Of a stretch of 37,414 nt of DNA, positions 546 through 35,493 are shown one piece after another (position 1 is the first letter of the stretch; each line of letters starts with the position of its first letter). The notes under the pieces are model-generated. The model made no database searches, had not been told where the DNA came from, and saw only the letters and a program-made list of their open reading frames with translations. The stretch comes from Bacteroidaceae bacterium (GTDB lineage: Bacteria > Bacteroidota > Bacteroidia > Bacteroidales > Bacteroidaceae): the NCBI GenBank assembly GCA_017483765.1, contig JAFUVE010000051.1, positions 1 through 37,414 on the forward strand, in the 5' to 3' direction. The position numbers were made by a program, and so were the translations under genes.

Positions 546-698
546 GATGTCGGACGGGGCGGACAAGTCAGACGGGTCAGACGGGTCGGACAGGTCGGAC
601 AGATCGGACGGGTCGGACAGGTCGGACAAGTCGGAGGGGTCGGAGGGGTCGGACGGGGCAGACGGGTCGGACAGGTCGGACAAGTCAGACGGGTCGGA
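546..698. repeat. 9-bp minisatellite array A, 17 units of the GTCGGA family
   Basis: Seventeen consecutive 9-bp units follow the plus-strand consensus C-(A/G)-(A/G)-GTC-(G/A)-GA, without any indel from 546 to 698. The same unit in the same orientation recurs at 15781-15888, 16481-16615 and 25173-25352. Here the array is intergenic. Translation would give Ser-Asp-x repeats, but there is no sign of a gene around it. Confidence 0.9.
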
Positions 699-819
699 CA
701 GCATCCGCATGGCAAATCTCAAACTTCAATTTTCGTGCAAACGAACACAGAGCCAAGCTTGCTTGAGCTATGTTGAGTGCAGCCGAAAATCATGTCAATA
801 AACCTCAAATTTCAAAATA

Positions 820-9501: not shown

Positions 9502-11142
9502 ATGAAATACTTCAATAAAATATTAGTTTTCGCGGCACTTGGCATCGGGGCAACCGCACTCACCGGCTGTCTTGACGAAACCGAGCCTGAATCAGCAACC
9601 GTCACACAGAAACAGGTGGAGAACTCCACTTTGGCAACTGAGGCTGCCGTTCTGGCCATGCCAGCCTATTTCAATCATTTCGACGATGCCATCGTCGACC
9701 GTGGATGGCACTATCCGTTCGGATATGGCGCCAACATGTACATCCGCGACCTGATGACCGGTGACATGGGACACGACAAGACAAACTATGCATCCCACTT
9801 CTACTACTGGGCTCAGAACAAATACCAGGGCGACGGATATGTGTTCTGCCAGTACGTGTTCAACTACTACTATGGCTTCGTGCTCACCATCAACACAGCA
9901 ATCGGCGCAGTGGATCCTGAAAACGCCACCGACCAGCAGCTGGGATGGCTTGGTGCCGCCTACGCGTTCCGTGCCCTCGCCTACCTCGACCTTGCTCGCA
10001 CCTATGAGTTCCTGCCAAACGACAAGTTCCCTGACGGCAAGAACAAGGACGGCAACATAGTGACCAACCTGACTGTTCCAATCGTGACCGAGAGCATGGC
10101 AGTGGAAGAGACGATGAACAACCCGCGCGCCAAGCGTGAGGACATGTTCAACTTCATCCTCTCCGACCTCGACAACGCAGAGAAGTACATCGTGAACCTC
10201 CACAACTACGTAAACAACACCCTGCCTGACATGGCTTGTGTATACGGACTGAAAGCCCGTCTGTACATGTGGGTGGAAGACTATGCCAACGCTCAGAAAT
10301 ATGCCCGTCTGGCCATCGACAACGCCCGCGTGCAGCCGATGACAGAGGATGACTGCCTCGACCCGGCCACAGGCTTCAACACGATCAGCAAATGGATGTG
10401 GGGTTCTCAGCAGACGAAGGAGGACGACACCGTTTCTTCAGGTATCATCAACTGGACCTCATGGCTCTCGAACCAGACCACATTCGGATACACCGGATTT
10501 GCAGAGGCCAACATGCCTTACAACGTTATCGACCAGCGTATGTACGACCGCATCAGCAACACGGACTTCCGTAAGCTTGAGTTCCTCGCGCCGGAAGATT
10601 CTCCGCTCAGGGCTCTGAACCGTCTGATTCCTGGCACCGAGGCGGCAATCAACGAGAACATGACACCGCTCGCTGCGCTGAAGTTCCGTCCGAACGCAGG
10701 AAACTACAAAGAATACACCACTGGTGCCGCTTCCGCATACCCCGTGATGCGCGTGGAGGAGATGTACTTCATCGAGGCTGAGGCAGCAGCACACCAGAAC
10801 CCTGAGCAGGGAAAGCAGCTCTGCATCGACTTCATGAAGAACTACCGCGACCCGAACTACAACATCGGCCAGGCAGTCGATCTCATCGACGAAATCGTGT
10901 TCCAGAAGCGCGTGGAGCTCTGGGGCGAAGGACAGACCTTCTTCGACATCAAGCGACTCAACATGTCTGTGACCCGTGGATATTCAGGCACCAACTTCTA
11001 CAGCACCGCACGTCTGAACACCGTGGGACGTCCGGCATGGATGAACTTCGTGCTTATCCGCAGCGAGGAGAACGTGAACAAGGCCGTCGTGGGATGGAAC
11101 AACCCCGACCCGTCAGACCTCTACACGCCTTGGACTGAGTAA
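9502..11142 (+). CDS. SusD-like nutrient-binding outer-membrane lipoprotein
   Basis: A 546-residue partner of the SusC protein, 32 bp downstream. The N-terminus has a lipoprotein signal with lipobox ALTGC (Cys23), followed by acidic DETEPES, which fits surface export. The SusD/RagB pattern is present: helical TPR-like segments such as GAAYAFRALAYLDLARTYEF, then the C-terminal PVMRVEEMYFIEAEAAAH and FQKRVELWGEGQTFFDIKRL motifs. It would sit as a lid over the transporter and bind substrate. No glycoside hydrolase is nearby, so a sugar substrate is not indicated. Confidence 0.95.
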   Translation: MKYFNKILVFAALGIGATALTGCLDETEPESATVTQKQVENSTLATEAAVLAMPAYFNHFDDAIVDRGWHYPFGYGANMYIRDLMTGDMGHDKTNYASHFYYWAQNKYQGDGYVFCQYVFNYYYGFVLTINTAIGAVDPENATDQQLGWLGAAYAFRALAYLDLARTYEFLPNDKFPDGKNKDGNIVTNLTVPIVTESMAVEETMNNPRAKREDMFNFILSDLDNAEKYIVNLHNYVNNTLPDMACVYGLKARLYMWVEDYANAQKYARLAIDNARVQPMTEDDCLDPATGFNTISKWMWGSQQTKEDDTVSSGIINWTSWLSNQTTFGYTGFAEANMPYNVIDQRMYDRISNTDFRKLEFLAPEDSPLRALNRLIPGTEAAINENMTPLAALKFRPNAGNYKEYTTGAASAYPVMRVEEMYFIEAEAAAHQNPEQGKQLCIDFMKNYRDPNYNIGQAVDLIDEIVFQKRVELWGEGQTFFDIKRLNMSVTRGYSGTNFYSTARLNTVGRPAWMNFVLIRSEENVNKAVVGWNNPDPSDLYTPWTE

Positions 11143-15776: not shown

Positions 15777-15780
15777 AAGA

Positions 15781-15888
15781 CTGGTCGGACTGGTCGGACT
15801 TGTCGGACTTGTCGGACTGGTCTGACAAGTCGGACGGGTCGGACGGGTCGGACGGGTCGGACTGGTCGGACTGGTCGGACGGGTCGGA
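15781..15888. repeat. 9-bp minisatellite array C, 12 units of the GTCGGA family
   Basis: Twelve units of C-(T/G/A)-(G/T/A)-GTC-(G/T)-GA run without indels, starting just after the M6 protease stop and ending about 40 bp before the four-helix-bundle start at 15931. The orientation is the same as arrays A, D and F. It is intergenic, but the unit is open in most frames. Confidence 0.92.
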
Positions 15889-15930
15889 CTATAATAATCT
15901 AAAACAAAAAAACAAAAACAAAAAAACACT

Positions 15931-16641
15931 ATGCAAACAACTTTTCTTCAGAACAATGGCGGATACCGGAAGCTTAGAGTATATAAGGTAGCTGAAATCA
16001 TTTACGATATAACTTTCTATTTCACTCAGAATTACCTGAACCATGGTGACAGAACAATAGACCAAATGCTGCAGTCAGCACGTTCCGGTAAACAAAACAT
16101 TGCTGAAGGAAGTAAAGCATCTACAACATCCCGAGAAACAGAGATAAAACTCACAAACGTGGCAAAAGCAAGCCTGGAAGAACTTCTCATTGACTACGAA
16201 GATTATCTAAGAACAAGACAACTCACTCAATGGGACACAAACCATCCTCGATATGCTCCAATGAGAGAATATGCAAAAGGCAATCGCATTGAAAACGAAT
16301 ATAACAACCTTCTCCAAAAACTTGATGACGAAGAAATTGCAAATCTTTGCATTACACTTATCAACCAAGCTACATATATGCTTAGAAAATTGATTGAAAA
16401 ACAGCAACAACAATTTCTACAAAATGGAGGCATACGAGAACAAATGACAAAAGCAAGAGTCGAGTATAGAAAGAATCAGACGGGTCAGACGGGTCAGACA
16501 AGTCAGACGGGTCAGACGGGGCAGACTGGTCAGACAAGTCAGACTGGTCAGACAAGTCAGACAAGTCAGACTGGTCGGACAAGTCAGACTGGTCGGACTG
16601 GTCAGACTGGTCCGACAAATCACAGCCTTCCCCAAAACTAA
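15931..16641 (+). CDS. Four-helix-bundle (S23/Avd-like) protein with repeat tail, paralog 1
   Basis: A 236-residue protein. Residues about 12-170 match the four-helix-bundle family that includes 23S rRNA intervening-sequence proteins and the Avd accessory protein of diversity-generating retroelements: GDRTIDQMLQSARSGKQNIA, then KLTNVAKASLEELLIDYEDY, then LINQATYMLRKLIEK. Residues about 185-230 are a Gln-Thr-Gly/Ser repeat encoded by 9-bp array D. The gene is bracketed by array C upstream and array D inside its 3' end. Its closest relative in the window is at 21707, with a quite different tail. I see no promoter match; it may depend on read-through from the protease. No reverse transcriptase is near. 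The function is unknown; related proteins form basic pentamers that bind nucleic acid. Confidence 0.85.
   Translation: MQTTFLQNNGGYRKLRVYKVAEIIYDITFYFTQNYLNHGDRTIDQMLQSARSGKQNIAEGSKASTTSRETEIKLTNVAKASLEELLIDYEDYLRTRQLTQWDTNHPRYAPMREYAKGNRIENEYNNLLQKLDDEEIANLCITLINQATYMLRKLIEKQQQQFLQNGGIREQMTKARVEYRKNQTGQTGQTSQTGQTGQTGQTSQTGQTSQTSQTGRTSQTGRTGQTGPTNHSLPQN
16481..16615. repeat. 9-bp minisatellite array D inside the four-helix-bundle gene, 15 units
   Basis: Fifteen units of C-N-(G/A)-GTC-(A/G)-GA, mostly the GTCAGA variant, give the Gln-Thr-Gly/Ser tail. The DNA orientation equals arrays A, C and F, but the reading frame differs: array F in the phage gene is read as Ser-Asp-Gln on the other strand. 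Confidence 0.92.
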
Positions 16642-16711
16642 AACAAAAGACACTCTTTTAGCTCTTTACCTGTTAATTAAAGTTAACAAACTAAACAAAA
16701 CAATCAAATAG

Positions 16712-16743
16712 TTTGTCAACTATAATTATAGTTGCTATATTTG
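16712..16743 (+). promoter_or_regulatory. Promoter with embedded BlaI-type operator
   Basis: TTTG (16712-16715), a 20-bp spacer and TATATTTG (16736-16743) form a Bacteroidota promoter. The spacer holds a perfect 18-bp palindrome, CAACTATAATTATAGTTG (16717-16734), between the -33 and -7 elements. A repressor bound there would block RNA polymerase, and the first downstream gene encodes a BlaI-family repressor, so autoregulation is the natural reading. Confidence 0.8.
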
Positions 16744-16805
16744 CAGCGTAATTTCATTTATCGCTAAAAAAAGCGGACTTTGTTCCGTCAGAAAGAACAC
16801 AAATT

Positions 16806-17207
16806 ATGAGCAACAAAGACTACAAGGAACTGACCCCGGCAGAACTCGCCGTCATGCGCATACTTTGGGACAAGAAGCAGGCACTCGCCCGCGACATACT
16901 CAACGAGATGCCGGAACCCAAGCCAGCCTACAACACGGTGTCAACTGTCATACGGGTGCTGGAAAAGAAAGGATTCGTAGGACACAAAGCCTACGGAACG
17001 ACCTACGAGTACTTCCCCCTCGTACCCAAGCGTGAATACACGTCCAACTTCCTGCAGAGCATGATGCACAACCTCTTCGGGGGGTCAAAAGCCGCCTTCA
17101 TGTCGTTCTTCGCAGAGGAAGAGTCCATGACGCAGGAGGAAATCTCCGAGCTCGAGCAGCTCATGCAGAAAGTGGAGGAAAGAAAGAAAGTGAATAGTGA
17201 ACAGTGA
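16806..17207 (+). CDS. BlaI/MecI-family transcriptional repressor
   Basis: A 133-residue winged-helix repressor. The DNA-binding domain is in the first 75 residues (LTPAELAVMRILWDKKQALA, and the recognition helix AYNTVSTVIRVLEKKGFV). A helical dimerisation part follows, with EEISELEQLMQKVEERKK. In this family a membrane M56 peptidase responds to a signal and inactivates the repressor by cleavage. The next gene encodes such a peptidase. Its likely operator is the 18-bp palindrome in the upstream promoter. No beta-lactamase gene is present, so the regulated process may be envelope-related rather than antibiotic resistance. Confidence 0.92.
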   Translation: MSNKDYKELTPAELAVMRILWDKKQALARDILNEMPEPKPAYNTVSTVIRVLEKKGFVGHKAYGTTYEYFPLVPKREYTSNFLQSMMHNLFGGSKAAFMSFFAEEESMTQEEISELEQLMQKVEERKKVNSEQ

Positions 17208-17240
17208 ACAGTGTGGTTACCAAAGCACTCTGTTTTTTTT

Positions 17241-17272
17241 AAGTTACAAGACGCCCCACGGGGCGTCTCTAC
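17241..17272 (-). repeat. REP-like palindromic element, copy 1
   Basis: A 32-bp element with core AGACGCCCCAC/GGGGCGTCT. Its reverse complement is identical to copy 2 at 19128-19159, so the M56 gene sits between perfect inverted copies. Further copies are at 29647, 31968 and 32297. Confidence 0.85.
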
Positions 17273-17292
17273 TCAACTTTAAACTAAAAAAA

Positions 17293-19125
17293 ATGCTCAC
17301 ATACGAACTGAAAGCCGCATTGCTCTTAGGGGTGTTCTACGGCCTTTATGCCCTGCTGATGCGCCGTGACACCCTCTTCCGTCAGCGCAGACTGGCACTG
17401 CTGGCATCCGTCATACTCTCCGCGCTGCTCCCACTCTGCCAAATCGAATGGCACGTGGAGGAAATCATCTCTCCCGAGGCTGCCGGCAACCTGCCCGTCA
17501 TCTCAGACAAAGCAGCGGAAGAGCCGATGTCAGACGGCATCTGGACGCATTACGCCACCATCGCCGCCACCAGCCTCCTCTTCTTAGGCATGGCTGTGAT
17601 GGCGATACGTTCAATCAAAGAGCTGGTCAGCCTGCAACGGTTCATCCGTCAGCATCGTTCCCACAAAACATCCGACGGCACCACCATCGTCGTGAGCAGC
17701 CACCCCACACGGCCGTTCTCCTATCTGAACTACATCGTGATGTCGGAAGCGGATTTCGAACGCAACCACGACGCACTCATCATGCACGAGCAGGCACACA
17801 TCCGTCATCACCACACCATCGACCTCTTCCTCATGAACCTCCTGCTCACACTCCAATGGTTCAACCCCGTGGCATGGAAACTGCGCAAAGAGCTGACGAT
17901 GGTACATGAATACGAGGCGGATGAGGACGTGCTCAACGCAGGGATAAACTCCACGGACTACATACAACTGCTCATCAGCAAGGCCACGGGCAGAGGCCGA
18001 TTCTCTTTGGCCAACACGCTCAGCGAGAAGCGTATGCTCAGGCAGCGGGTAGAGATGCTGGCACGCAGACGCACTACAAAATGGGCGAAACTCAAGACAC
18101 TGTCACTGTTGCCGGTCATCGCACTCAGCCTGGGAATGTCGGCGAAAGTGGTGAAAGACTATACCTACCTGGAGCAGCCAACCGCACTTCAGAGTCAAAA
18201 CGGACAGGAGAAGAACAAACGCATACAGCAGAAAGACCGGCAGACCGTCCCTGCAGGCAAAGCCGGAGAACATACGGCGGACGACGACTCCGTGGAATAC
18301 AAGGTGAACGGCATACAAGTGGCAAAACCGGACGTTGACAACATCAACCCGGACAAGATCAAGCAGGTCACCATCATCAAAAGTCCGACAAGCGATAATG
18401 ATAATAGTACTGACAAACCACTGAAACATAGGGTGTATGTGGACATTAACGACACCATCATTAAAAAGGTGGACGACAACACCTACATCATGTTCGACAG
18501 CCAGGAAGACTACGACGAGTTCCGGCAACAAAGCGACGACATCTCAATCGAAGTCGAGCGTGCACGAAGTGAGGCTGAGGCAGCACAACAAGAAGCACGA
18601 AAAAAAGCCGATGAGGCACGAAGCAATGTGAACGAAGCCCGCGCAAAACGTCACAGAGACGCGGAAAGGGTGCAAGAGCATGCAGAGAAAATGCGTGAAG
18701 GCGCATTGATTGAAGCCGACAAGGCACGAAAATACAAAGACCAGGCACATCAGCTGAAAACACAAATGAAAAAGGACAGGGAAGCCATCGAGCAGCAGGC
18801 CAAGGAAGCAAGAATCGCAGCAGAAACAGCTAAGCGCAAAGCACAAGTAGAAGCAATGGAGGCACGGAAAAAAGCCATCACCGAGCGTGAAAGGGCAAGA
18901 AGAATGAAGGACATAAAAGAAAAAAGCCAAAAGCAATATGACTCAACGCTGCACTCTTTCAACCATCAGAACCCCGACAGCACCTTTATGCTCACCGTGG
19001 AAGGTGACGGAACTATCACTAACATTACTGCCTACCAGACGGACACCACCAGCAACGAAACCAACCTCATGCTCATCTGCAAGAAAGAAGGGCAAGACCT
19101 CATCGTTATCTACAAAAGAATTTAG
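17293..19125 (+). CDS. M56-family (BlaR1-like) membrane metallopeptidase sensor
   Basis: I start at 17293 (MLTYELKAALLLG) because the longer frame from 17197 would translate the REP palindrome. The product has 610 residues. Transmembrane helices occupy the N-terminal third (for example AALLLGVFYGLYALLM and IAATSLLFLGMAVMAI). The zinc motif HEQAH starts at residue 165, and the downstream helix has HEYEADEDVL. A further hydrophobic helix (SLLPVIALSLGMSAKVV) precedes a long periplasmic part. That part holds a highly charged coiled coil (about residues 415-550, rich in Ala, Glu, Lys and Arg) and no penicillin-binding domain, so beta-lactam sensing is not indicated. It is the probable signal-transducing partner of the BlaI-like repressor. 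Confidence 0.9.
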   Translation: MLTYELKAALLLGVFYGLYALLMRRDTLFRQRRLALLASVILSALLPLCQIEWHVEEIISPEAAGNLPVISDKAAEEPMSDGIWTHYATIAATSLLFLGMAVMAIRSIKELVSLQRFIRQHRSHKTSDGTTIVVSSHPTRPFSYLNYIVMSEADFERNHDALIMHEQAHIRHHHTIDLFLMNLLLTLQWFNPVAWKLRKELTMVHEYEADEDVLNAGINSTDYIQLLISKATGRGRFSLANTLSEKRMLRQRVEMLARRRTTKWAKLKTLSLLPVIALSLGMSAKVVKDYTYLEQPTALQSQNGQEKNKRIQQKDRQTVPAGKAGEHTADDDSVEYKVNGIQVAKPDVDNINPDKIKQVTIIKSPTSDNDNSTDKPLKHRVYVDINDTIIKKVDDNTYIMFDSQEDYDEFRQQSDDISIEVERARSEAEAAQQEARKKADEARSNVNEARAKRHRDAERVQEHAEKMREGALIEADKARKYKDQAHQLKTQMKKDREAIEQQAKEARIAAETAKRKAQVEAMEARKKAITERERARRMKDIKEKSQKQYDSTLHSFNHQNPDSTFMLTVEGDGTITNITAYQTDTTSNETNLMLICKKEGQDLIVIYKRI

Positions 19126-19127
19126 TT

Positions 19128-19159
19128 GTAGAGACGCCCCGTGGGGCGTCTTGTAACTT
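19128..19159 (+). repeat. REP-like palindromic element, copy 2
   Basis: A 32-bp element starting two bases after the M56 stop codon. It is the exact reverse complement of copy 1. It can fold into a GC-rich hairpin and may act as a terminator or mRNA stabiliser between this gene and the outer-membrane protein gene. Confidence 0.85.
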
Positions 19160-19220
19160 AAAAACCACTAATAATCAGACAATTCCATTGCCTGACCAGC
19201 CATAACTATGCCTAAAAAAA

Positions 19221-21437
19221 ATGAACAAGAAACTGATTACCGCCATCATCTGCCTGCTTGCAGCCACCTTCTGCCACGCACAGGACAACACAACCAACCC
19301 CGACTCCATAGCCACCGAATCCGACTCCCTGCGATGGGAGAAGATGCTGGAGGGAGTGACCGTCAAGGCGCAGCGCCAACTCATCAAGACAGAAATCGAC
19401 CGCATTGGCTATGACGTGCAGGCCGACGAGGAGTCGAAGACCGACAACATCCTGGATATGCTGAAAAAGGTACCGTTCGTCAGCGTTGACGCACAGGAGA
19501 ACATACGGGTGAAAGGCAGCAGCCAGTATAAAATCTACCGAAACGGCCACTACGACCCCAACCTCAGCAAGAACGCAAAGGAGCTCTTCCGGTCCATGCC
19601 GGCATCCATGGTGAAACGCATCGAGGTCATCACCGACCCTGGAGCCAAGGAAGACGCCGAAGGAGTCAACGCCATCCTCAACATCGTGATGATGGAAAAC
19701 CAGGCCATCAAAGGACTTACAGGGACTGTCAGCACGAGGGCAACCACGAAAGGGAGCGGAAACATCAACGCCAGCCTCACCACACAGATCGGGAAAGTCA
19801 TCACGTCAGTGGATTACGGCGCACAGAGAATGTCTGAGAGTGTCACGAAACACGAAGACATCGCCGAAGACAACTTCATCGACTCCGGCAACACGATCCG
19901 CTCCGAGTCGGAAGGGAGCAATCCCGGCTACTTCCATTTCGCCGACATCAGCGCCAGCTACGACATCGACTCGCTCAACCTCCTTTCGGCTTCGTTCGGA
20001 GGATATTTCTACGATATGGATGTCAAGGGAAGCAACACATACATCAGCACTGACCCATCCGACAATCCGATATACAGCTACGGACGGACCTACAACTTGC
20101 CGTCGTATGCCCACCAGTCGTGGAACGGCAGGGCTGACTATGAGCACAGAACCCGCCGAAAGGGCGAGACACTCACCCTCTCCTACATGCTCGCCTTCAC
20201 CCGACAGCGAACCGTGCAGAAAAACCAGTTCTACGAATTGGTGAACGCCCCCTTCGACTACACACAGAACGAGGAGAACACCCTGGAACGGTTCACCGAG
20301 CACACCTTCCAGCTGGACTGGACACGGCCCCTGTGGGAAGGGCACACGCTGTCCACAGGACTCAAGTACATCGAGCGCCGCAACAGCAGCCACACACTTC
20401 AGGACTTCAACGACGAACCGAAATTCACGTCGTACGACAACAAGTTCAACCACAACACGCATATCGCGGCGGCTTACGCCGACTATATGTACACACACGG
20501 AAAATGGTCGGCACGGGCAGGACTGCGTTATGAGCACAGCTATATGAGCGCACACTATCCTGACGGAAATGGAGAGGACTTCGGGCGGCACATCAACGAC
20601 TGGGTGCCGCAAGCCAGCATGAAATACCAGTTCAACGACCGGCAGTCGCTGAAGCTCACCTACTCCACCAGCATCAGCCGGCCGGGAATCGGTTACCTCA
20701 ACCCGGCGGTCATCATCAACCCCAATGCCGTGCAAAGCGGAAATCCAAGCCTCAAGAGTGCCCACTCACAGTCCGTATCCTTGAACTACCTCCTCACCGG
20801 CGAGCGGATCACACTGCAGATCGCACCCTCGTTCGACTTCTGGAACGGAGGAATCGGAAGGGTGGTCAACGCCAGGGAGGACGTACGTTACCTCACCTAC
20901 GGAAACATCGAGCGGATGCGACGATTCTCGACGGAGGGCTACATTCAGTGGAAACCGTTCGGCAAAACCACGGTCATTGCCAACGCCACGCTCATGTACG
21001 ACCACCTGGAGAACCGCAACGCAGGACTCTCACAGCACGGATGGTCGGCTTACTTCTTCGCATCGGCCAGCCAGCAGCTCCCCTGGAGACTACGCCTCTC
21101 CGCCAACGCATGGGGCAACTTGGGGAACCAGCCCAACAATGTCTACAGCTACAGCCGGCCGTACACCATCTACGGTATCTTCCTACAGCGGTCTTTCCTC
21201 GACGAGAACCGTCTCACGGTCAGCCTGCGGGCCATATCGCCCTTCAACAAGACCAACCGCCAGATCACCATCACCAACCACGGCGACTACACCGGCTTCG
21301 ACAAGCAAATCATGAACATACGCCGCTTCGAAATCGCAGTCTCCTTCCGCTTCGGCAAGCTGAAGGCCAGCGTGAAGAAAGCCGGGCGATCCATCGAGAA
21401 CTCCGATGTCGTGGGCGGCATCCAGAAAGGGAACTGA
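19221..21437 (+). CDS. Outer-membrane beta-barrel (TonB-receptor-like) protein
   Basis: A 738-residue exported protein with signal peptide MNKKLITAIICLLAATFCHA. A plug-like domain follows (about residues 45-165: ILDMLKKVPFVSVDAQENI, VKRIEVITDPGAKEDAEGV, NAILNIVM), then a barrel of aromatic-rich strands with KYQFNDRQSLKLTYSTSISRP. This is the outer-membrane beta-barrel family related to TonB receptors. The carboxypeptidase-like N-terminal domain common in this group is missing, so the protein begins close to the plug. It follows the BlaI/M56 pair, with no promoter of its own that I can see, and may be part of the same regulated unit. Its cargo is unknown. Confidence 0.85.
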   Translation: MNKKLITAIICLLAATFCHAQDNTTNPDSIATESDSLRWEKMLEGVTVKAQRQLIKTEIDRIGYDVQADEESKTDNILDMLKKVPFVSVDAQENIRVKGSSQYKIYRNGHYDPNLSKNAKELFRSMPASMVKRIEVITDPGAKEDAEGVNAILNIVMMENQAIKGLTGTVSTRATTKGSGNINASLTTQIGKVITSVDYGAQRMSESVTKHEDIAEDNFIDSGNTIRSESEGSNPGYFHFADISASYDIDSLNLLSASFGGYFYDMDVKGSNTYISTDPSDNPIYSYGRTYNLPSYAHQSWNGRADYEHRTRRKGETLTLSYMLAFTRQRTVQKNQFYELVNAPFDYTQNEENTLERFTEHTFQLDWTRPLWEGHTLSTGLKYIERRNSSHTLQDFNDEPKFTSYDNKFNHNTHIAAAYADYMYTHGKWSARAGLRYEHSYMSAHYPDGNGEDFGRHINDWVPQASMKYQFNDRQSLKLTYSTSISRPGIGYLNPAVIINPNAVQSGNPSLKSAHSQSVSLNYLLTGERITLQIAPSFDFWNGGIGRVVNAREDVRYLTYGNIERMRRFSTEGYIQWKPFGKTTVIANATLMYDHLENRNAGLSQHGWSAYFFASASQQLPWRLRLSANAWGNLGNQPNNVYSYSRPYTIYGIFLQRSFLDENRLTVSLRAISPFNKTNRQITITNHGDYTGFDKQIMNIRRFEIAVSFRFGKLKASVKKAGRSIENSDVVGGIQKGN

Positions 21438-21510
21438 CCAGCACCAACCAGACTATTCAACCCATCAAAAGAAAACTTTTAGGATTAGTAATAATTAATA
21501 GCATGCAGCG

Positions 21511-21544
21511 ACTTCCCCGGTCGTTGAGAAACGGCCAGGGAAGT
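21511..21544 (+). terminator. Long hairpin after the outer-membrane protein gene
   Basis: ACTTCCC-C-GGTCGTT (21511-21525) pairs with AACGGCC-A-GGGAAGT (21530-21544) around GAGA, with one mismatch and one G-T pair. No T-run follows directly. It lies 73 nt past the stop and is the best terminator candidate in the 269-bp gap before the next gene. Confidence 0.5.
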
Positions 21545-21615
21545 ATCACACATTCGAAGAGTTATGTTTCAAAAAACTTTTATCTACCCATCCCGAATTA
21601 TTTTCTTATGAAATA

Positions 21616-21646
21616 TTTATCATGTCCTTTATTTTTCATAAATTTG
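21616..21646 (+). promoter_or_regulatory. Promoter of four-helix-bundle paralog 2
   Basis: TTTA (21616-21619, one base off consensus), a 19-bp spacer and TAAATTTG (21639-21646). The start codon is at 21707. Unlike paralog 1, this gene has a good promoter. Confidence 0.6.
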
Positions 21647-21706
21647 CACCATGAGAAAAAACTAAAAATTCTTTTACTATAGTTCTCAATCTTAACCATA
21701 CCAAAA

Positions 21707-22411
21707 ATGAACACATTTCTGAAACCTAAAGGGGATTACAAAAAACTGATCGCATTCCAAAAAACAGAATGTATTTACGACATCACAATTTACTTTATCA
21801 ATCATTATCTTCCAAAAATTGGTGACAGAACCGTAGACCAAATGAGACAATCGGCAAGGTCGGGCAAACAAAACATATCCGAAGGAAACGAAACTGGTAC
21901 GACATCGACTGAAGCATGTATCAAGTTAGTGAATGTCGCCAAAGCCAGTCTGAAAGAACTACAAGAAGATTATGAAGACTATCTTCGCAACCACGGCAAT
22001 CAAATTTGGCCAGTGGACAGTGTCCAATGCAGAAATGCCAGGGAATGGTGTAAGCAACGCTCTTCTCCAGAAGATTATAGAGTCGTATGCGAAAAAAGAG
22101 ATGACATCACACTTGCCAACATAGCCTTGATACTCATCCATCAAGCCGATTTCCTGTTGAAACGCCTTCTTGACAAATACAAGAAGGAGTTTTTGGAACA
22201 AGGTGGAATCAAAGAACAAATGTCACAAGCCAGGCGACAATGGAGAGCTAACCACGGAATGGGAGGCTATAATAGAAAGAATGGGAGCTATGGGAACTAT
22301 GGGAATAATGGGAATGATGGGAACTATGGGAATAATGGGAATGATGGGAATAATGGGAATAATGGGAACTATGGGAATGATGGGAACTATGGGAATAATG
22401 AGCATTCATAG
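21707..22411 (+). CDS. Four-helix-bundle (S23/Avd-like) protein with repeat tail, paralog 2
   Basis: A 234-residue paralog of the protein at 15931. The folded part (about residues 10-180) is clearly related: GDRTVDQMRQSARSGKQNIS, KLVNVAKASLKELQEDYEDY, LIHQADFLLKRLLDKYKKEF, GGIKEQMSQAR. The tail is different: about 40 residues of Gly-Asn-Tyr/Asn/Asp triplets encoded by a 9-bp array (GGGAAnnAT). So the two paralogs kept the domain and exchanged the repeat. The central region has a Cys and charged insert (CRNAREWCKQRSS). A 10-bp array of complementary sequence begins 10 bp after the stop. No reverse transcriptase or template repeat is nearby. Confidence 0.85.
   Translation: MNTFLKPKGDYKKLIAFQKTECIYDITIYFINHYLPKIGDRTVDQMRQSARSGKQNISEGNETGTTSTEACIKLVNVAKASLKELQEDYEDYLRNHGNQIWPVDSVQCRNAREWCKQRSSPEDYRVVCEKRDDITLANIALILIHQADFLLKRLLDKYKKEFLEQGGIKEQMSQARRQWRANHGMGGYNRKNGSYGNYGNNGNDGNYGNNGNDGNNGNNGNYGNDGNYGNNEHS
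22283..22399. repeat. 9-bp minisatellite array E, 13 units of GGGAAnnAT
   Basis: Thirteen units (GGGAACTAT, GGGAATAAT, GGGAATGAT, first GGGAGCTAT) run without indels and encode the Gly-Asn-x tail of paralog 2. The unit sequence is unrelated to the GTCGGA arrays, but the period and the position at the gene end are the same. Confidence 0.92.
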
Positions 22412-22420
22412 TGGCTTATC

Positions 22421-22510
22421 CATTCCCATCAACTCCCATCAACTCCCATCCATTCCCATCAATTCCCATCAACTCCAATCAACTCCCATCAATTCCCATC
22501 AACTCCCATC
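22421..22510. repeat. 10-bp minisatellite array G, 9 units of (A/C)A(A/C/T)TCCCATC type
   Basis: Nine exact 10-bp units (AACTCCCATC, CATTCCCATC, AATTCCCATC) plus a partial unit to 22517. On the minus strand the unit reads GATGGGAATT, which shares GATGGGAAT with array E, so arrays E and G form an inverted pair with periods of 9 and 10. The TGA stop of the minus-strand phage gene (22511-22509) lies inside the last unit. Confidence 0.9.
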
Positions 22511-25500
22511 AACTCCCTTCCACCACCATTCCCTCTACCCGCTCATAGTCATTCATCTCCGTAAACAGCGCGATGCGGAACCAGCGGTAGGAATGTCCGT
22601 GGAGCGAGCGCATACGCCACCACACCCGGCGGTTGTTCGAGGCAAAGACCGCCACACGCACGGAGGAGGCCGCATCCGTCTGACGCCACAGCACACGCAA
22701 GTCGGTCATCCGCCTCAGACCCAGGATGCTGCCAAAAGAAAGCGGACGTGTGAGCAACAGCCCCTTGCGACGCACAAAACCACAGCCATTGGAGAACCGC
22801 AGGAGATGCCCACCTTGCTGCACAAGCGTGTCAGGATAGTCGTTGACCACCGCAGACGGACGGCTCACCGCTGAGGAGAGCGTCACCTCGCCGTTGCTGA
22901 GCGAGACAACATAATGAAAAGCACTCTCACCCACATACACATGCAGTAGCCCATTCGGATAGTCGTAGGCCACGACCGCCCCGGCCAGCGACTGACGGAA
23001 GTCGGGCGGGACCTCCGCCACGAGGCTGTCGAACGACTCGTCCACCCCGCTGAGCAACGACACGTCGGCCGACAGGCCGTCGAGCTGCGAGGCAAGCACA
23101 CGGATTTCCGATCCTGCAATCTGCTTCAGCCCCTGGTCCGTGGCAAACACCACGGAGCGGTCTGCCTGCACGATGCCCCTGGGCGACAGGCAGCGGTCGC
23201 GCGACACGGGATGGACCGCCACAAACGCGCCGTCCTGAGCCAGCGAGAGCGCCCAGATACCGTCGTGGCAGAAGGCGTAAAGCGGAAACTGGCCGAACTG
23301 ACCCTGGCTGAGCGCCTGCGTCGCCGCCGCCATGCCCACCACCGTGGTCTCTCCCACCCGGTTGGTCTGCTCGGCGGAGAACGCAAACGGATTGTTCACA
23401 CCGCTCTGATGCACCTTATTGGGATAACGGACTGTGGCATACGTGTCCGCCATGTCGGCCTCCGCCTTCTCTGCGGCCGTAAGCGAGGCATAGGAAGTCC
23501 AGTCCGTCCACTCCGGCTCGTTGAAGTTGTCGAACCAGCAGGCGCCGCTGAGCAGCGGGTGAGGCTGCAGACGCAGTTCGGCACGGCGCCACCGGTTCGT
23601 CAGGTCGTTCTGCCAGAGACGCACGCTCTGGGCGTTCGACGACGGATAGTAGAACCAGAAGAACGGCGCCTCGTTGGTATGGCGCGGCAGGTCGCCGACG
23701 CAGAGCGTGCGCGCCTCCCCGTCCTCCGCGTAGCGGACTATGGCTTTCGTCAGGTTGAGAGTGGCACGCTGCGCAGAGTTGTTCACATACGTGCCCGACA
23801 GCCCCTGCAGCAAGGCAGGCAGATGGCCGTGGAATTTCCGGTCGGTCACGTCGGCGATGACCAGCCGTCCGTTGTAGACCGTCATGCATGCCCCGCTGCG
23901 GGGAGAGAGCGAGAGCGGGTTGTCGGGCAGCCGGCGGCGGTTCTCCAGTGTCGACAGCGTGTTGGAGTCCATCTCCACGTCGCTCCATTCGTCCACGTCC
24001 GGCAGCTGGTCCACCGCTATCTCCTTCACGATATAAAAATTGGCCTTGCCCGTCAGGCTCTCCGCCTGCTGGCGTTCCGTGAAGGAGGGAAGGCGGATGG
24101 AGAAGAGTTGCGGGGCCGAGGTCGTGCTCAGGCTGTTGTGCTGTTTGAACAGCCACGTGCCGCTCGACGTGCCGTCGCCGTTGTCGAAATAGCCGTAGCT
24201 CCAGGTGTCGTCGGCGCGGCGGTCGTCAGCGGCGTCTATACGCCTCAGCTCCACGAGGTTCTCACCCGCCTTCCATTCCGCACCCTGATTGTACGACCAC
24301 ACAGGCGACGAGACAGCTATCGCCACGTCCGTCACCAGGTCTTTCCAGGCGTCCAGCGCCGTCTTCCTCAGCAGACGGTATTTCAACTGCGACACCACCG
24401 CCGACACGTAGGTGTCCCACGGACGGCCGTCTGTCCCGCCCAGTGTCCACACCATCGGGGTCAGTCCCCGGTTGGGCAGCATCAGGCAGGGAGGCGACGG
24501 GCAGACGTAGGTGCCGTCGTACATCTTCAGCGCATAACGGACGAAAAACGGATACATGAACTTGTTCTCCTGTGTGGCATATTTGCTGATGAAGGCATTG
24601 GCCAGGCCGGTAAGCGCCGTGAAGTTCTCCGGGGTGTCGGCAAAGAGGTGGCCCGTGGCGGTGGCTGTGCCCTTCAGCAGTGTCACGGAGAGCGACTTCG
24701 TCTGCTTGCCGTTGGCCCAAAGCACAAGTTCCAGGTGGTCCACGGTCTTGCTTCCGTCGGTGGTGAACACGGCGTAAGGATGCAGGTCGTTGGCGGCAGT
24801 AGAGAAGGCGGCATAGACGCGGGTGGAGTCGGTGTAGCAGAGATAGACGGAGAAGGGTGTGGACTGCTTGCCAGTCACGCGGGTGGTCACCACCTTGTAG
24901 GTGGTGGACTGCTCCAACGGACGTGAGGGAGAGAGGGCGAACACCGTCTCATGGGAGAACTCAGGTGTGGTCACCGGCGTGGGTGCCACCACCTCTGCGA
25001 ATTCCGTCGTCTCCGTCCGGTCGGAGGGCTCGATGAGGATGCCGGTCTCCTCTCCGGGATTGAAGGTCTGCACATAGATGTTGCGCAGCCGGAACTGGAT
25101 GTCCACCTGCGGAAAGCTGCTGCCCAGGAAAGCATAGGCTCCTTCCCGCCAGATGGCGTAGGCAGTGGAGAAATTGTCGGACAAGTCGGACTGGTCGGAC
25201 GAGTCGGACTGGTCGGACTGGTCGGACTGGTCGGACGAGTCAGACTGGTCGGACAAGTCAGACTGGTCGGACTGGTCGGACTGGTCGGACGAGTCGGACT
25301 GGTCAGACTGGTCAGACTGGTCGGACAAGTCAGACTGGTCGGACAGGTCTGACCTCTCTGCCCCACGAATCCTGAAGACCAGCACATTACCCATCGCAGT
25401 CATGCCATCCACACGTCCCTCAGTCAGCGTGGTGATCAGGATTTTTGTGCCGTTCTCGTTGTAATAAGCCAGCGAGCGTCCGTCATCGCTGCTGACGACA

Positions 25501-25694
25501 TAGTGTTTTCCGGCATCCACGTGGTGGATGCCAAGCAGCCTGTCGCCATCATCAAGTGTGAGGTCAAGCGGCTCGGGGGCTGGCAGGTTGCGCAAGTCGC
25601 CGTCGCGTGGCAGGAGGTCCATCATGTAGTCGAGCTCACCGTCGGCGGAAAGCGACGGACTGCGGTGAATGCCTTTGTTCAATGTTATGTTCAT
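22509..25694 (-). CDS. Large phage-like virion/tail accessory protein with inserted Ser-Asp repeat
   Basis: A 1061-residue protein. I do not recognise a named family with certainty. The C-terminal third has segments such as [19 protein letters not shown] and [20 protein letters not shown], which resemble head-completion or DNA-stabilisation tail proteins with propeller-like folds. The middle has [19 protein letters not shown], also seen in phage structural proteins. It lies 45 bp downstream of the large terminase on the same strand, which supports a virion role. Residues about 115-174 are a pure Ser-Asp-(Gln/Ser/Leu) run made by a 20-unit 9-bp array, placed in frame between ordinary sequence, so it is probably a late insertion. 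There is no signal peptide. Its stop codon is inside array G. Confidence 0.6.
25173..25352. repeat. 9-bp minisatellite array F inside the phage structural gene, 20 units
   Basis: Twenty units of C-(T/G/A)-(G/A)-GTC-(G/A)-GA with no indel, on the plus strand, in the same orientation as arrays A, C and D. The gene reads the other strand and translates it as Ser-Asp-Gln/Ser/Leu. The length of 180 bp keeps the frame open. Confidence 0.93.
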
Positions 25695-25739
25695 GGTTTT
25701 TCTGGATTTTTTCCGGAGATTCCGGGCTTTCCGGTTTTT

Positions 25740-27872
25740 CTAAAACATACTGCTTTCGTTGACTGTGCCGTAGGAGCGTCTTGGCGCAGACCGTCTTTCT
25801 GTGCATGGCGTGCTGCGCGGCATCTCCTCGTGCACCACGCAGGCTATCATGTTTGTCATCACGATGTCGTCGTGGTTGTTGTGGCCGGGGATGTTGCCGT
25901 AGCTGCCGTCCGTACGCTCCTCGTAGATGGACAGCTCCTTATAGAACGCCTCGTCGGGGTCGTGAAACAAGCCGTCTTCGAAGCATTTCGTAAAACGGTC
26001 CACCATCAGCTGTTTGGTACGGCGGTTCGTGTGGAAGCCCACCTTGCGGTGAATCCCCTGACTGATATCCTCGGGGTCTGTGGATGGGCGGGTGTACAGG
26101 TTGCGGTATATGGCTTTCAGCTCCTCTATCACGCTCACGGCATGGTCCGTATTTTCCAGGAACTCGACGGATTCGGCCTTTTTCTTGTCGAACGTGTTGC
26201 TCTCGAACACGATTTTCGCCTCGTCGTACCACCACCCCATCTGAGCGGCTTTCCGGGCCAGGTCATCGAACCGGCAATGGCCTCGCCAGCGGGCCACGAC
26301 CCTCAGCCCTTCAGCCACCTGCTTTCCATAGCATTTCCTGTGGATGCCGTTGCTGAGTTCGTCCTGGAGGGTGTCAGCCCCGATGCGGTCAATCACCGTG
26401 ATGACGGAATAGTCCGACTGCTCCCGGCGGCCTCCCACATCCACCGTGATCATGTAACGATCCTGGAACACCTGCTTCTCCGGGTATTCCCACACCTTCA
26501 GGGCACCCTCCTCGTCTGCCACCTCATGCTCCACCTCGCCGTCTTTCAACGTCATGTCGCCCCGGAAGAGGGGAAATTGCGTCTCGCGTTTCGCTGCTTC
26601 CTCCACCTTCTCCGGGTCTATGATCAGGTGGCCGCTGAAGGTGAAGCACTCGATGTCGTCGCTCGGTGCCTCGCTCGCCATCTGGGCATGGGAATGGAAG
26701 GACTTGCGCCGCTCCACATACCATTTGATATGCTCGAGCGTGGCCCCTTTCACCCACAGTTTCCACAAGTAGTCGCCCGGCTCTGCCGTCTTCTCCGTCG
26801 TCACGCTGTTGTTCTTACGCTCCAGCAGACGGGCTGCAAACGCGTCGCGTTCAGCATCATCGTCGAACGGCAGCATGTCGTGCTCGATAAAGAAGAACGG
26901 GATGAAAAGAGCCTGACGGGCAGAATGATGTGCTTTAGCTTCCTGGTATTCGTCATAGAAATAGCCGCTCTTGCCGTTCGCCGTCGACTCCATCACCTCC
27001 ATCGTGTAGGGCACTCCCTCGGCAATGCCGCTCGTCACGGCCCGGATCAGTCCTGCCGCGCTTTTCTGAGGGGTCTGCCTCCAGTAGGCCACTTCCGAGA
27101 AGTGTGCCATGGCGATGTCGCAGCCGCGCGTGCTTTCATAGTTCTCGTAGGAGCTGACCGTGATGACGTTCGTGCGGACGGGCTTGCCGTGCTTGTCGGC
27201 TATCACGCAGTCGGAAGCCGAACGCTCGTAGGGTGCGAATTTCAGCTCTCCTTGGCCAAACACGTCTTGAGGGAAAAACTGAAGCACTTTCGTGTACATC
27301 GCCTTGATCCGGCGTGCCGTGTCCTTCGTCTGGGCAACGATAAGAGAGTTCCACCCTTCCTTCACGAACAGCTGGATCCAGGCCATATAGAGCTGCACGA
27401 GCGTGGACCCTCCCCACTGGCGGGCTTTCAGCAGGATGAGGCGGATAGGCTTGGATGCACGGCGCATCCCCTCCAGCTTGTCGAGCAGCACGCGCTGGGC
27501 ATAGTTCAGCTTGAACGGCATCAGCCGGCCGCTCACCTTGTCCTTGATATGGAAGGCGCGGACGAAGGCGAACGCCGGGTCGTGGGCCATCCGCAGGCGG
27601 TTCAGCTCACGGGAGAGGCGCTGGCGCTCGTCTGCTTTGTCTTTCCCCTGGGCCTGCAGGTAAGCGCCGATACTCCCGGCATCAATCACCTTCTTGTAGT
27701 CTGTCAGTTCCGTCACTTCCCGCGTCAGCCACTGCTCAGGCAGGTCGTGGTCGGGGATATGCACATAGGTGCGGTCGTCGCCCATCCCACGGCCAGTCAG
27801 CTGGTCGGCCTCAGCGAAAAAAGCGGCTTTCCTCCGTATGTTTTCTTCGATTAGTTCTTCTGTTGTCATCAT
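25740..27872 (-). CDS. Phage terminase large subunit (TerL)
   Basis: A 710-residue packaging motor. The ATPase part has Walker A LKARQWGGST (residues 148-157), a Walker B-like strand CDIAMAHFSEVAYW (251-264) and a coupling motif near MEVMESTANG (291-300). The nuclease part, an RNase H-like fold, shows the acidic residues expected: VDVGG with Asp478, FESNT with Glu557, and HDD at 667-669. The enzyme would cut concatemeric phage DNA and pump it into a prohead. Its neighbours are the portal upstream and a structural protein downstream, all on the minus strand. The frame is intact. Translation can start at either of two adjacent Met codons. Confidence 0.9.
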   Translation of the reverse strand: MMTTEELIEENIRRKAAFFAEADQLTGRGMGDDRTYVHIPDHDLPEQWLTREVTELTDYKKVIDAGSIGAYLQAQGKDKADERQRLSRELNRLRMAHDPAFAFVRAFHIKDKVSGRLMPFKLNYAQRVLLDKLEGMRRASKPIRLILLKARQWGGSTLVQLYMAWIQLFVKEGWNSLIVAQTKDTARRIKAMYTKVLQFFPQDVFGQGELKFAPYERSASDCVIADKHGKPVRTNVITVSSYENYESTRGCDIAMAHFSEVAYWRQTPQKSAAGLIRAVTSGIAEGVPYTMEVMESTANGKSGYFYDEYQEAKAHHSARQALFIPFFFIEHDMLPFDDDAERDAFAARLLERKNNSVTTEKTAEPGDYLWKLWVKGATLEHIKWYVERRKSFHSHAQMASEAPSDDIECFTFSGHLIIDPEKVEEAAKRETQFPLFRGDMTLKDGEVEHEVADEEGALKVWEYPEKQVFQDRYMITVDVGGRREQSDYSVITVIDRIGADTLQDELSNGIHRKCYGKQVAEGLRVVARWRGHCRFDDLARKAAQMGWWYDEAKIVFESNTFDKKKAESVEFLENTDHAVSVIEELKAIYRNLYTRPSTDPEDISQGIHRKVGFHTNRRTKQLMVDRFTKCFEDGLFHDPDEAFYKELSIYEERTDGSYGNIPGHNNHDDIVMTNMIACVVHEEMPRSTPCTERRSAPRRSYGTVNESSMF

Positions 27873-27892
27873 TGTGTGTGTGTTTCATGGTT

Positions 27893-27935
27893 TCTCAACT
27901 AATATTCCCCTCAACTCTAAACTCTCAACTAATAT
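27893..27935. repeat. Short direct repeats between portal and terminase genes
   Basis: TCTCAACTAATAT occurs at 27893-27905 and again at 27923-27935, with further CTCAACT pieces between and up to the portal stop codon. This is another low-complexity array at a gene end. Confidence 0.5.
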
Positions 27936-27939
27936 CACT

Positions 27940-29631
27940 CTAAATACTCAACTGGCTTCCCCCTGGCAAATACAGATTCTGGAGCAGCTGCTCGGTGGTG
28001 ATGGCGTTCTTCTGCCACATCTGCATCACCAGGTCGTTGGTCATCATGCGTGCCACCGGCGTGTCGCCGTTATCCTGAATGCTCACCTTGAAGTCGATGT
28101 CCGCCACCTGCTGCGGCTCATACGTGAGGTAGCGGCCGTACTCCTGCTTGCGGGCCGGCGCCACAAGCCGCGGCTTCTGGTAGTACTGGTGGATCACCTT
28201 CATCTTCTTACGCGCCAGACTGCGCTCAAACTCCGTGAACTTGCCCGTCAGCGCTGCCACGCTCGTCGAAGAGTTCTCCATCTCCATGGCATAACGGGCG
28301 TAACCGGTGTTGCCGGAGGGAGGAACGCCCTGGAGCGAGGAGTTCACACTCGTGATCTCGTTGATGCTGGAGAGTTGCAGCTGCAGCATCTCCGACACCC
28401 CCAGGTTCAGCGCGTTCTGCGTGATGATCTCGGGCTTCGCACCCGTGGGGTCTGGCTCGTACACAATCCAGCCGCCCACCTCCACTGCCTGCCGGGCAAA
28501 CTCGTCTATCGTCATGTTTCTCGGGATGGACCGCTTCGGAATCATCTTCAGTCCTTTGATGGACGAGTTGATATACATGTCGTTGAGCGTGATGAGGCGG
28601 TTCACGTAGCGTTGCTGGTCGATGACGGAGCTCATGAACGGATAAATTCGCCCGTTCACGAAGTGGTAGGCGGCCATCACGTAAGGATGGTCTTTATGTT
28701 CGTAAGGCGAGTCATACTCCCGGAGCACGGTTCCGTCGGGGGCGAGGAGCGTGAAATGCCAGGTCTCGTCGTAGGCGGGCTCCACCATGATGGGATTTCC
28801 CTTCCTACGGCGGTTTTCCGCCTCGATCTCAGCCAGCTCGGATGCCTCGACGAGGAAGACGGGCTGAGACTTGTCCTCACGGTCCACACATCGGTAGCGC
28901 ATTCGGGGCTGGCGGGTCCAGACGTGGTAGGTGCGGAGCAGCGTCTCGTCGGCGGCATGCCAGAAGTCAAGGTTGTCGTGCTGGTCGGTCAGCTGTGTGG
29001 AGCCAGAAAGGAATCTCGCATAAGGGGCGTAAATCTCTTTGAGGTTGACACCGACCACGCCACGCAGCATCGACGTCAGCTCAGGATAGGTGTAGTCGCG
29101 GATCTCGCCGATGAGGGCGACGTCCCACAGGCGCGGGTCGTTCATCTTGCTCTCGAAAAAGAAATAATCAGGGTTGACGGGAAACGTGTAGGCGTCGTCC
29201 TGCCCGTTCGTGCTGCCCCACTCCTCGCACACCACGCTCAGCCCTCCTTGCATCAGCTCCTCCATCTGGCTGACCAGTAGCTCTTTCATGCTGTTCGTTT
29301 CCCAGTTCGACTGCAAGGCATTCGTCATCATGCGGCTTTTCTCGTCGGCATCCTCGCTCCGGGCATAGCACACGGGCATCGTGCTCCGCTTCGCAATCAG
29401 TCCCGTCAGCGCATGCACAATCTTGATCAGGTGGTTGTTCTGAAGGGGCACCGCACCGCTATGGCGGGCGATACGCTCCCGTTCTGTCACCAACCGGCCG
29501 TCGTCGTCAACCACCAGGTCGCCCCACTGGTCGCCATAGATGTAATTGATATTCCTTCTGCGGGTCTGGCGGAAGTCCTCCAGCCCCAGCCACGCACGCT
29601 CAGCGCGCAGCAACAAATTCATGTTTTTCAT
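27940..29631 (-). CDS. Phage portal protein
   Basis: A 563-residue protein from the chosen start at 29631 (MKNMNLLLRAERAW). The open frame extends to 29706, but that part would translate the REP palindrome and a direct repeat, so I reject it; 29622 (MNLLLRAERAW) is an alternative. Features of portal proteins are NYIYGDQWGDLV near the N-terminus, NNHLIKIVHALTGLIAKR, the central helical part with YVNRLITLNDMYINSSIKGL, and the clip/crown-like helices LALTGKF-type near residues 470-500 (VAALTGKFTEFERSLARKK). It would form the ring through which TerL packages DNA. It lies 67 bp upstream of the TerL gene. No scaffold or capsid gene follows, so the prophage is incomplete here. Confidence 0.8.
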   Translation of the reverse strand: MKNMNLLLRAERAWLGLEDFRQTRRRNINYIYGDQWGDLVVDDDGRLVTERERIARHSGAVPLQNNHLIKIVHALTGLIAKRSTMPVCYARSEDADEKSRMMTNALQSNWETNSMKELLVSQMEELMQGGLSVVCEEWGSTNGQDDAYTFPVNPDYFFFESKMNDPRLWDVALIGEIRDYTYPELTSMLRGVVGVNLKEIYAPYARFLSGSTQLTDQHDNLDFWHAADETLLRTYHVWTRQPRMRYRCVDREDKSQPVFLVEASELAEIEAENRRRKGNPIMVEPAYDETWHFTLLAPDGTVLREYDSPYEHKDHPYVMAAYHFVNGRIYPFMSSVIDQQRYVNRLITLNDMYINSSIKGLKMIPKRSIPRNMTIDEFARQAVEVGGWIVYEPDPTGAKPEIITQNALNLGVSEMLQLQLSSINEITSVNSSLQGVPPSGNTGYARYAMEMENSSTSVAALTGKFTEFERSLARKKMKVIHQYYQKPRLVAPARKQEYGRYLTYEPQQVADIDFKVSIQDNGDTPVARMMTNDLVMQMWQKNAITTEQLLQNLYLPGGSQLSI

Positions 29632-29643
29632 CGTATTATGTAT

Positions 29644-29800
29644 TTTGTAGAGACGCCCCGCGGGGCGTCTTGTAACTAAAAACCCCAACCGTATTTTCAA
29701 AATCACTCCTCCAACAAACGTCCAACTCCTTCAAATTCCTTGCAAAATTACATGAAAAAGCAACATCTTTCCCACGTTTTCGGAAAAAATGAAAAATTTT
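29644..29800. repeat. 157-bp direct repeat, left copy
   Basis: It begins with the REP-like palindrome and runs to GAAAAATTTT at 29791-29800. The five differences from the right copy are clustered at 29683-29684, 29703, 29705 and 29753. The endonuclease promoter starts right after it at 29811. Confidence 0.93.
29647..29678 (+). repeat. REP-like palindromic element, copy 3
   Basis: The core AGACGCCCCGCGGGGCGTCT is a perfect 20-bp palindrome, flanked by GTAG and TGTAACTA. It is identical to copy 5 and forms the outer end of the left direct repeat. Confidence 0.85.
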
Positions 29801-29810
29801 TAAAATATAT

Positions 29811-29841
29811 TTTGTTATTTTCTTAAAATAAAGTAATTTTG
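29811..29841 (+). promoter_or_regulatory. Promoter of the restriction-modification genes
   Basis: TTTG (29811-29814), a 19-bp spacer and TAATTTTG (29834-29841) match the consensus fully. The site is inside the island, just past the direct repeat, so the genes bring their own promoter. It also argues for the ATG at 29866 as the endonuclease start. Confidence 0.75.
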
Positions 29842-29865
29842 CAAATCATAAAAAAGAATCAGTAT

Positions 29866-30930: not shown

Positions 30931-30935
30931 TAGAA

Positions 30936-31934: not shown

Positions 31935-31967
31935 GTAACCGTAGTCAAATATTTTTATCACTTAGTT

Positions 31968-31999: not shown

Positions 32000-32008
32000 T
32001 TAACTTCT

Positions 32009-32289: not shown

Positions 32290-32293
32290 TATG

Positions 32294-35296: not shown

Positions 35297-35300
35297 GTTT

Positions 35301-35478: not shown

Positions 35479-35493
35479 TTACAGCAATATAGG

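Follow-up and report, generated by a model that had tools for sequence, protein, structure and literature searches.

REPtrons pair a protein with a short repeat, and one account (PMC8266576) describes TnpA-REP and REP as having co-evolved. Here we analyse a locus from a Bacteroidaceae bacterium, contained in a stretch of 37,414 nucleotides (assembly GCA_017483765.1, contig JAFUVE010000051.1, positions 1 to 37,414; hereafter the window), in which two paralogous genes for proteins of the NCBIfam family TIGR04258 stand beside tandem arrays of 9 or 10 base pair (bp) units. We propose that each TIGR04258 gene and the short tandem array beside it are cognate partners, a gene-repeat pair that would amount to a selfish REPtron-like element, and we assign this reading a probability of roughly 0.55. 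Plasmids offer a familiar parallel: their centromere arrays, such as parC, consist of tandem units close to a helical turn in length and adjoin the gene for the protein that binds them, ParR.

The NCBIfam models TIGR04258 and TIGR02436, to which the window proteins belong by score, name the domain only; a literature search on the model names returned no papers, and nothing was found that describes a function or an association with arrays. Among the matches listed for Prevotella/Bacteroidetes minisatellites, palindromic repeats and four-helix proteins there was no such link either, within a coverage that takes in passages of PMC5524665 and leaves subscription papers and preprints mostly outside. 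The partnership of gene and repeat looks undescribed.

Two TIGR04258 genes and their arrays

The window comes from a 3.13-Mb draft genome that is 69.9% complete. Paralogue 1 (15931..16641, plus strand, 236 amino acids (aa)) consists of an S23-type four-helix core, a 4helix_suffix domain (TIGR04258; 16327..16473, plus strand, 88.7 bits) and a QTG/QTS tail encoded in frame by an array of GTCAGACNN (16476..16616), whose period is 9 according to Tandem Repeats Finder (TRF). Directly 5′ of the gene, and beginning just past the stop codon of an M6-peptidase/dockerin gene, lies array C (15779..15890) with 9-bp units GTCNGACNN, leaving paralogue 1 flanked by two GTCNGACNN arrays, array C and its own 3′ end. 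Paralogue 2 (21707..22411, plus strand, 234 aa) combines TIGR02436 and TIGR04258 domains, the 4helix_suffix domain lying at 22109..22246 (plus strand, 72.3 bits), and ends in a GN-rich tail encoded by an array of unit ATGGGAANN (22281..22400, period 9 by TRF). A directly upstream array is missing; 3′ of the gene lies array G (22424..22517, unit TCCCATCAAC). The cores of the two paralogues are 49% identical.

An earlier note on this DNA had reported the two genes, a domain common to both and their period-9 tails, all of which were confirmed. The arrays that it placed before paralogue 1 and after paralogue 2 are also present, array G having a period of 10 (TRF) instead of 9. One point is corrected: neither tail is an isolated gene end, each being matched by an array that lies beyond the gene. 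Array C repeats the unit of the first tail, and array G carries the word of the second reversed (TCCCAT against ATGGGA).

Both proteins pass the curated cut-offs of TIGR04258, the four helix bundle suffix (84.8 and 71.2 bits for paralogues 1 and 2; cut-off 40), and of TIGR02436, the four helix bundle protein (28.0 and 27.7 bits; cut-off 24), and fall under the gathering cut-off of PF05635 (23S_rRNA_IVP; 25.8 and 27.8 bits; cut-off 33.8). The predicted structure fits solved structures of the S23 family, with 2gsc and 2rld as the best, and the fold is closest to S23 proteins; Avd, to which the earlier note had likened the domain, was not set apart from unrelated four-helix bundles. An Rfam scan of the window gave no match at gathering score, and the genes are not inside a 23S ribosomal RNA (rRNA) gene. 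No transposase family matched the two window proteins. Across 186 family cores (described below), which in the sample are 38-75% identical to the protein P0001, 37 positions are at least 97% conserved and 22 of these are polar; an HxH-type motif occurs in 1 of the 186 cores, and no histidine stands in the core columns conserved at 90% or more.

The window's genome holds a third TIGR04258 gene, on a different contig, which has an ACTAGT-type array downstream. At the suffix-less four-helix loci of the same genome, TRF reported no period-9/10 array (2 of 2).

Arrays, unit classes and protein clades across the family

Relatives were drawn as two sets. For set A, the 80 most P0001-like of 545 relatives were taken from genome contigs; set B comprised 80 further stretches from the better-scoring part of the TIGR04258 matches listed, for which the TIGR04258 model, blind to the tails, was used alone. 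A core profile yielded 186 distinct full cores, with identical cores counted once and 7 partial cores excluded, and arrays of period 9 or 10 were searched for within 300 bp on each side of the core. Among the 76 genes of set A with full flanks, 54 have an array upstream, 41 downstream, 27 on both sides and 68 on at least one side; the corresponding figures for set B (n = 96) are 45, 62, 31 and 76, and at least one array accompanies 7 of 10 genes from the window's own genome or genus. Of 401 control open reading frames (ORFs) from the collected loci, with search windows set from the ORF ends, 12 had a period-9/10 array as their best match on the upstream side and 13 on the downstream side, and an array of any period from 6 to 13 stood on at least one side in 87. 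Chance or low complexity was rejected as an explanation, since none of 1110 mononucleotide shuffles passed and only about 3% of control ORFs did so per side. The coupling of gene and array proposed in the earlier note is thus general, with the homologues far above the control ORFs.

In the 59 genes with arrays on both sides, a direct orientation of the two arrays fits better in 40 and an inverted one in 2 (by more than 0.1), with 17 undecided. Upstream and downstream arrays are mostly co-oriented, as though a single array surrounded the gene. Terminal inverted repeats were rejected as a general design, because most two-sided genes have direct arrays; the ATGGGA class (L197, L215 and L246) is an exception to the direct orientation. 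In some other genes the upstream array is apparently read as an N-terminal extension. No protein family recurs within 4 kb of the gene in more than 6 of 76 loci, which led us to reject an operon partner. Carriage by phages or plasmids was likewise set aside (no phage records, one large P. nigrescens replicon and one viral contig). On the viral contig, L305 from the IMG/VR viral collection, a divergent member of the family (42% identity) occurs together with several arrays of TCGGAC type.

The units fall into nine classes (GTCNGAC, CTCNGAG, TCNGA, CCTAGG, TCTAGA, ACTAGT, CTATAG, TTTAAA-like and ATGGGA), whose cores are mostly palindromic, ATGGGA being non-palindromic. Classing by motif placed 101 of the 186 genes in these classes, 59 in 'other' and 26 in none. 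Where both sides could be compared, the class agreed in 48 of 48 genes (2000 shuffles: mean 11.5, maximum 21), and the median similarity of array profiles was 0.90 within genes and 0.47 between genes. On a tree of the cores, from which the tails were excluded, the unit class changes 12 times among 101 genes (200 shuffles: mean 63.8, fewest 56). The GTCNGAC-class loci are labelled Prevotella, Porphyromonas, Barnesiella and Muribaculaceae. Capnocytophaga has a GTCtGAc unit upstream in 2 of 3 genes and is nevertheless labelled 'other'; the one gene scored by protein is nearest to the GTCNGAC class.

For genes not used in the labelling, the clade mostly predicts the unit where the arrays are clear. 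The predicted unit was found, for instance, in L237 (GTCNGAC), in L255, L259 and L262 (CTATAG) and in L246 (ATGGGA), and the words agree partially in L239, L240, L248, L249 and L257. Profile scores lie close together for L245 (identical to L202, already in the set) and L247, both of CTAG type, and agreement is not clear in L263, where an ACTAGT-like unit meets nearly tied CCTAGG and ACTAGT profiles. No array was seen in L238, L256, L258, L261 and L264. An annotated P. nigrescens gene has, as judged by eye, the suffix-helix sequence of the CCTAGG clade, and directly 3′ of its stop codon lies a short degenerate CCTAGG-like run that TRF did not report.

It is the DNA, and not the encoded peptide, that is conserved in the GTCNGAC class, because the downstream arrays of its 28 genes include two reading frames and non-coding arrays: 5 are read in the Gln-Thr frame, 5 in the Ser-Asp frame, 16 lie past the stop codon and 2 are missing. 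The tail peptide was rejected as the selected feature of this class on the same grounds. The earlier description of the repeats as specifically 3′-terminal tails is consequently not supported in that form, a coding array tail being present in only 10 of the 28 genes; homologues mostly without repeat tails, which the note had named as evidence against its idea, are what this class presents for coding tails, though not at the DNA level.

Genome-wide counts were made for two units, GTCNGAC and CCTAGG, and take in the gene's own arrays, which account for every place listed for G209. The window's assembly contains 255 matches per strand to the three-unit pattern GTCNGACNNx3 and none to the same pattern read backwards. 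TIGR04258 genes are patchily distributed, being present in 141 of 399 genomes of the bacterial family. GTCNGACNNx3 was found in 11 of the 399: in 5 of 5 genomes with a fetched clade gene (13-255 matches) and in 6 of 394 others (1-6 matches; p = 6e-9). For CCTAGGN4x3, found in 29 of 399, the figures are 15 of 20 genomes with the clade and 14 of 379 others (p = 2e-15). These p-values ignore kinship, and as a fetched full core was available for 75 genomes of this draw, the 'other' genomes may carry a matching gene that was not read. The same repeat elsewhere in the genome, which the earlier note had called for, is thereby borne out for the two units.

A second set of 49 genomes, which overlaps the 399 and so is not independent of them, gave GTCNGAC matches in 22 of 25 genomes with a class gene (4-927 matches) and in 5 of 24 others (2-21). 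Two of these five, G439 and G429, hold a further GTCNGAC-clade gene by protein profile; a third is the Capnocytophaga genome, whose gene is nearest to the GTCNGAC clade, and G437 and G445 have matches with no matching gene among the genes read. Three class loci with zero matches (L079, L081 and L083) have arrays of their own with period 10. A genome-wide period of 10 was predicted for them before testing, and 24, 15 and 17 matches were obtained in G415, G417 and G418. G425 gave 11 period-10 matches beside 4 of period 9, and period 10 is likewise seen in the array of its locus L128; the remaining 46 of 50 genomes had no match to the period-10 pattern. An array period of 10 beside the gene was predictive of the period across the genome. 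Backwards controls gave 1 match in each of 2 genomes in the 399-genome GTCNGAC scan, and 5, 1 and 1 in three genomes of the 49-genome set; there were none in the CCTAGG scan and in the period-10 test. Some records are redundant: G012 and G402 have identical match places and were treated as one assembly, L021 is L062, L064/G404 is apparently L034/G176 (equal match counts, same blast row), and other overlaps between named and unnamed records are likely.

Array locations and turnover, and other features of the window

In the window and its genome and in P. conceptionensis and P. ihumii, 25 GTCNGAC arrays were examined: 21 are intergenic, 3 lie in an ORF and 1 is the end of paralogue 1. In G402 7 of 9 are intergenic. 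These are the first places listed, classified with simple ORF calls, and not a random draw. The window itself holds two GTCNGAC arrays of GTCNGACNN units apart from those at paralogue 1. One (549..699), away from the family genes, overlaps an ORF of 135 aa (394-801) that has no Pfam match. The other (25176..25353) lies in frame (SDQ/SDL) inside a prophage-type ORF (22509-25694, minus strand).

G402 is a near relative of the window's genome (~95% identical), and the number of units differs at 5 of 5 orthologous arrays (12/10, 14/5, 20/11, 15/5 and 21/7 in the window's genome and G402), the window's genome having more at all five. The array inside the prophage-type gene has 20 units in the window and 11 in G402, and the tail array of paralogue 1 is shorter in the near relative by 90 bp (10 units). 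Paralogue 2 and array G are absent at this site in G402; it is a replacement rather than a clean gap, because another small ORF stands there. One orthologous intergenic gap contains an ACTAGT array in L063 (9612-9666) and a GTCCGAC array in L066, as if one unit class had been replaced by another.

Other features of the window were recorded alongside. A TCTAGA-type 9-bp array lies at 238-307, and a similar CTAGAT array at L293:2691-2741. The stretch 22509-29706 (minus strand) is a prophage-type module with a phrog_32516 protein, a terminase large subunit and a portal; its gene at 22509-25694 carries the GTCNGAC array, of host type, in frame, and for a comparison with an array-free homologue of this gene no usable homologue was found. 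The stretch 29800-32294, including a C5-cytosine methyltransferase gene (30936-31934), is gone between matching flanks in G402. The stretches ~35298-35479 and 37276-37369 have counterparts in many contigs of G402, in some cases at their ends, and flank an ORF (35781-37238), perhaps as parts of an insertion sequence. Longer repeats are a set of 69 bp inside ORF 32600-35080 (33210-33693) and, apart from it, a tandem repeat of 54 bp at 35588-35739. Repeats of 7/14 bp (GTTGAGAGTTTAGA, TTTGAAG) occur at L293:1267-1309, 4289-4319 and 10437-10467, with many G402 matches, and period 7 is the commonest array period at the control ORFs.

Competing readings and comparison with known systems

The association of gene and array, the matched units, the matched period, the scattered arrays and the fast turnover of units were observed. 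For cognate pairs we propose that the protein would bind its own unit on double-stranded DNA, one copy per approximately one helical turn, and that this binding, or an uncharacterised activity of the conserved polar residues, may help arrays to persist, grow and seed intergenic copies. Gene and arrays would then behave as a selfish REPtron-like element, and recombination between the flanking direct arrays could let the gene be gained or lost. A bolder version, a single-gene selfish element in which an S23-fold protein recognises and multiplies its own tandem repeat and so seeds Bacteroidales chromosomes, with recognition diversified into at least nine unit classes, is tentative and in our view somewhat less likely than not. 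From the earlier idea of a repeat-spreading system, the pairing of gene and repeat survives and the 3′ tail as an essential part does not; spreading by the protein would be a predicted step.

Several results weigh against cognate pairs. DNA binding, enzymatic activity and movement are putative, and these proteins showed neither a nuclease nor a recombinase nor an HUH signature. The residues that differ between unit classes are dispersed across the core, with no one reading helix. The unit classes were set after the arrays had been inspected, and 26 of the 186 genes have no detected array. The p-values overstate independence, because the genomes and genes are related. Strict matches are missing in 5 of the 20 genomes that have the CCTAGG clade, and matches occur with no matching gene found in 6 genomes for GTCNGAC and 14 for CCTAGG. 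Finally, no clean array-free site was found for a solitary array: the 57 candidate rows from the scan were mostly arrays at the gene itself, and the 5 rows that were aligned showed unit-number changes or diverged flanks. A single specificity-setting helix was rejected as a candidate, as many columns vary between classes and none stands out; that many columns differ follows from the classes being clades.

An unlikely alternative is that the protein is a host regulator or chromosome organiser, the arrays at its own gene being autoregulatory operators and the scattered arrays binding sites of benefit to the host. The mostly intergenic placement of GTCNGAC arrays and the strong conservation of the core agree with this, and a period near one helical turn with palindromic cores would suit cooperative dimer binding. 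A regulator of this type fits poorly with the patchy presence of the family, with a site from which gene and array are both gone in a near relative, and with matches that number hundreds in some genomes and few in others; nor would it lead one to expect arrays that stand upstream of the gene, downstream of it or in both places, or inside reading frames, including that of a prophage-type gene. The gene could instead be a passenger and the arrays plain minisatellites, lengthened by slippage and dispersed by homologous recombination. The match of unit and clade would then come from co-inherited flanks and the scattered arrays from copying of the gene's own array. The changes in unit number between relatives do resemble slippage or unequal exchange, the mostly direct flanking arrays would permit recombination, and no activity is known for the protein. 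Such arrays are, however, rare at control ORFs and missing by TRF from the suffix-less four-helix loci of the same genome (2 of 2), the unit is kept within one clade across differently named families despite the fast change of the arrays, and a genome-wide switch of period accompanies the gene; we consider a passenger role improbable.

Least probable, in our judgement, is a reading along the lines of the earlier note, a relative of the diversity-generating retroelements in which an Avd-like cofactor, partnered in trans by a reverse transcriptase, would copy repeats to neighbouring loci. Avd is likewise a four-helix bundle, of a fold that may be similar, whereas the present loci have arrays in place of template and variable repeats and show no recurring adjacent reverse transcriptase; a rough search for [YF]xDD among 413 neighbour ORFs gave 13 scattered matches, none convincing by eye. 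Several unit cores are well-known hexamers, and the arrays could conceivably be restriction-site decoys.

Cognate gene-repeat pairs, if real, would provide a natural source for many of the dispersed minisatellites of gut and oral Bacteroidales and point to a task for a protein family that has a name but no known function. They would also offer a series of matched protein-DNA pairs in which to study how recognition changes. Selfish arrays would make this a gene-repeat system with no recognisable transposase; arrays that serve the host would instead point to an unrecognised chromosome-wide regulator.

Compared with known systems, TIGR04258 proteins have the fold of the S23 family (PF05635, 23S rRNA intervening-sequence proteins) and differ from it in their sub-cut-off PF05635 scores, their position outside rRNA genes, the suffix domain and the arrays. 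A CRISPR array was rejected, as the 9-10 bp units are contiguous and lack unique spacers of tens of bases. The parC/ParR system has a protein of a different fold, and here the arrays are chromosome-wide and no partner gene recurs. The likeness to the REPtron (TnpA-REP/RAYT with REP palindromes) is that the gene adjoins a short repeat, that further copies are scattered (for the two units counted genome-wide) and that protein and repeat are matched. RAYT is an HUH enzyme, whereas TIGR04258 proteins are four-helix bundles of S23 fold with no conserved HUH signature and no known cleavage activity, and in place of REPs there are units of 9-10 bp in tandem. Because protein fold, HUH signature and repeat form differ, the pair of TIGR04258 gene and array may at most be said to work like a REPtron, not to be one.

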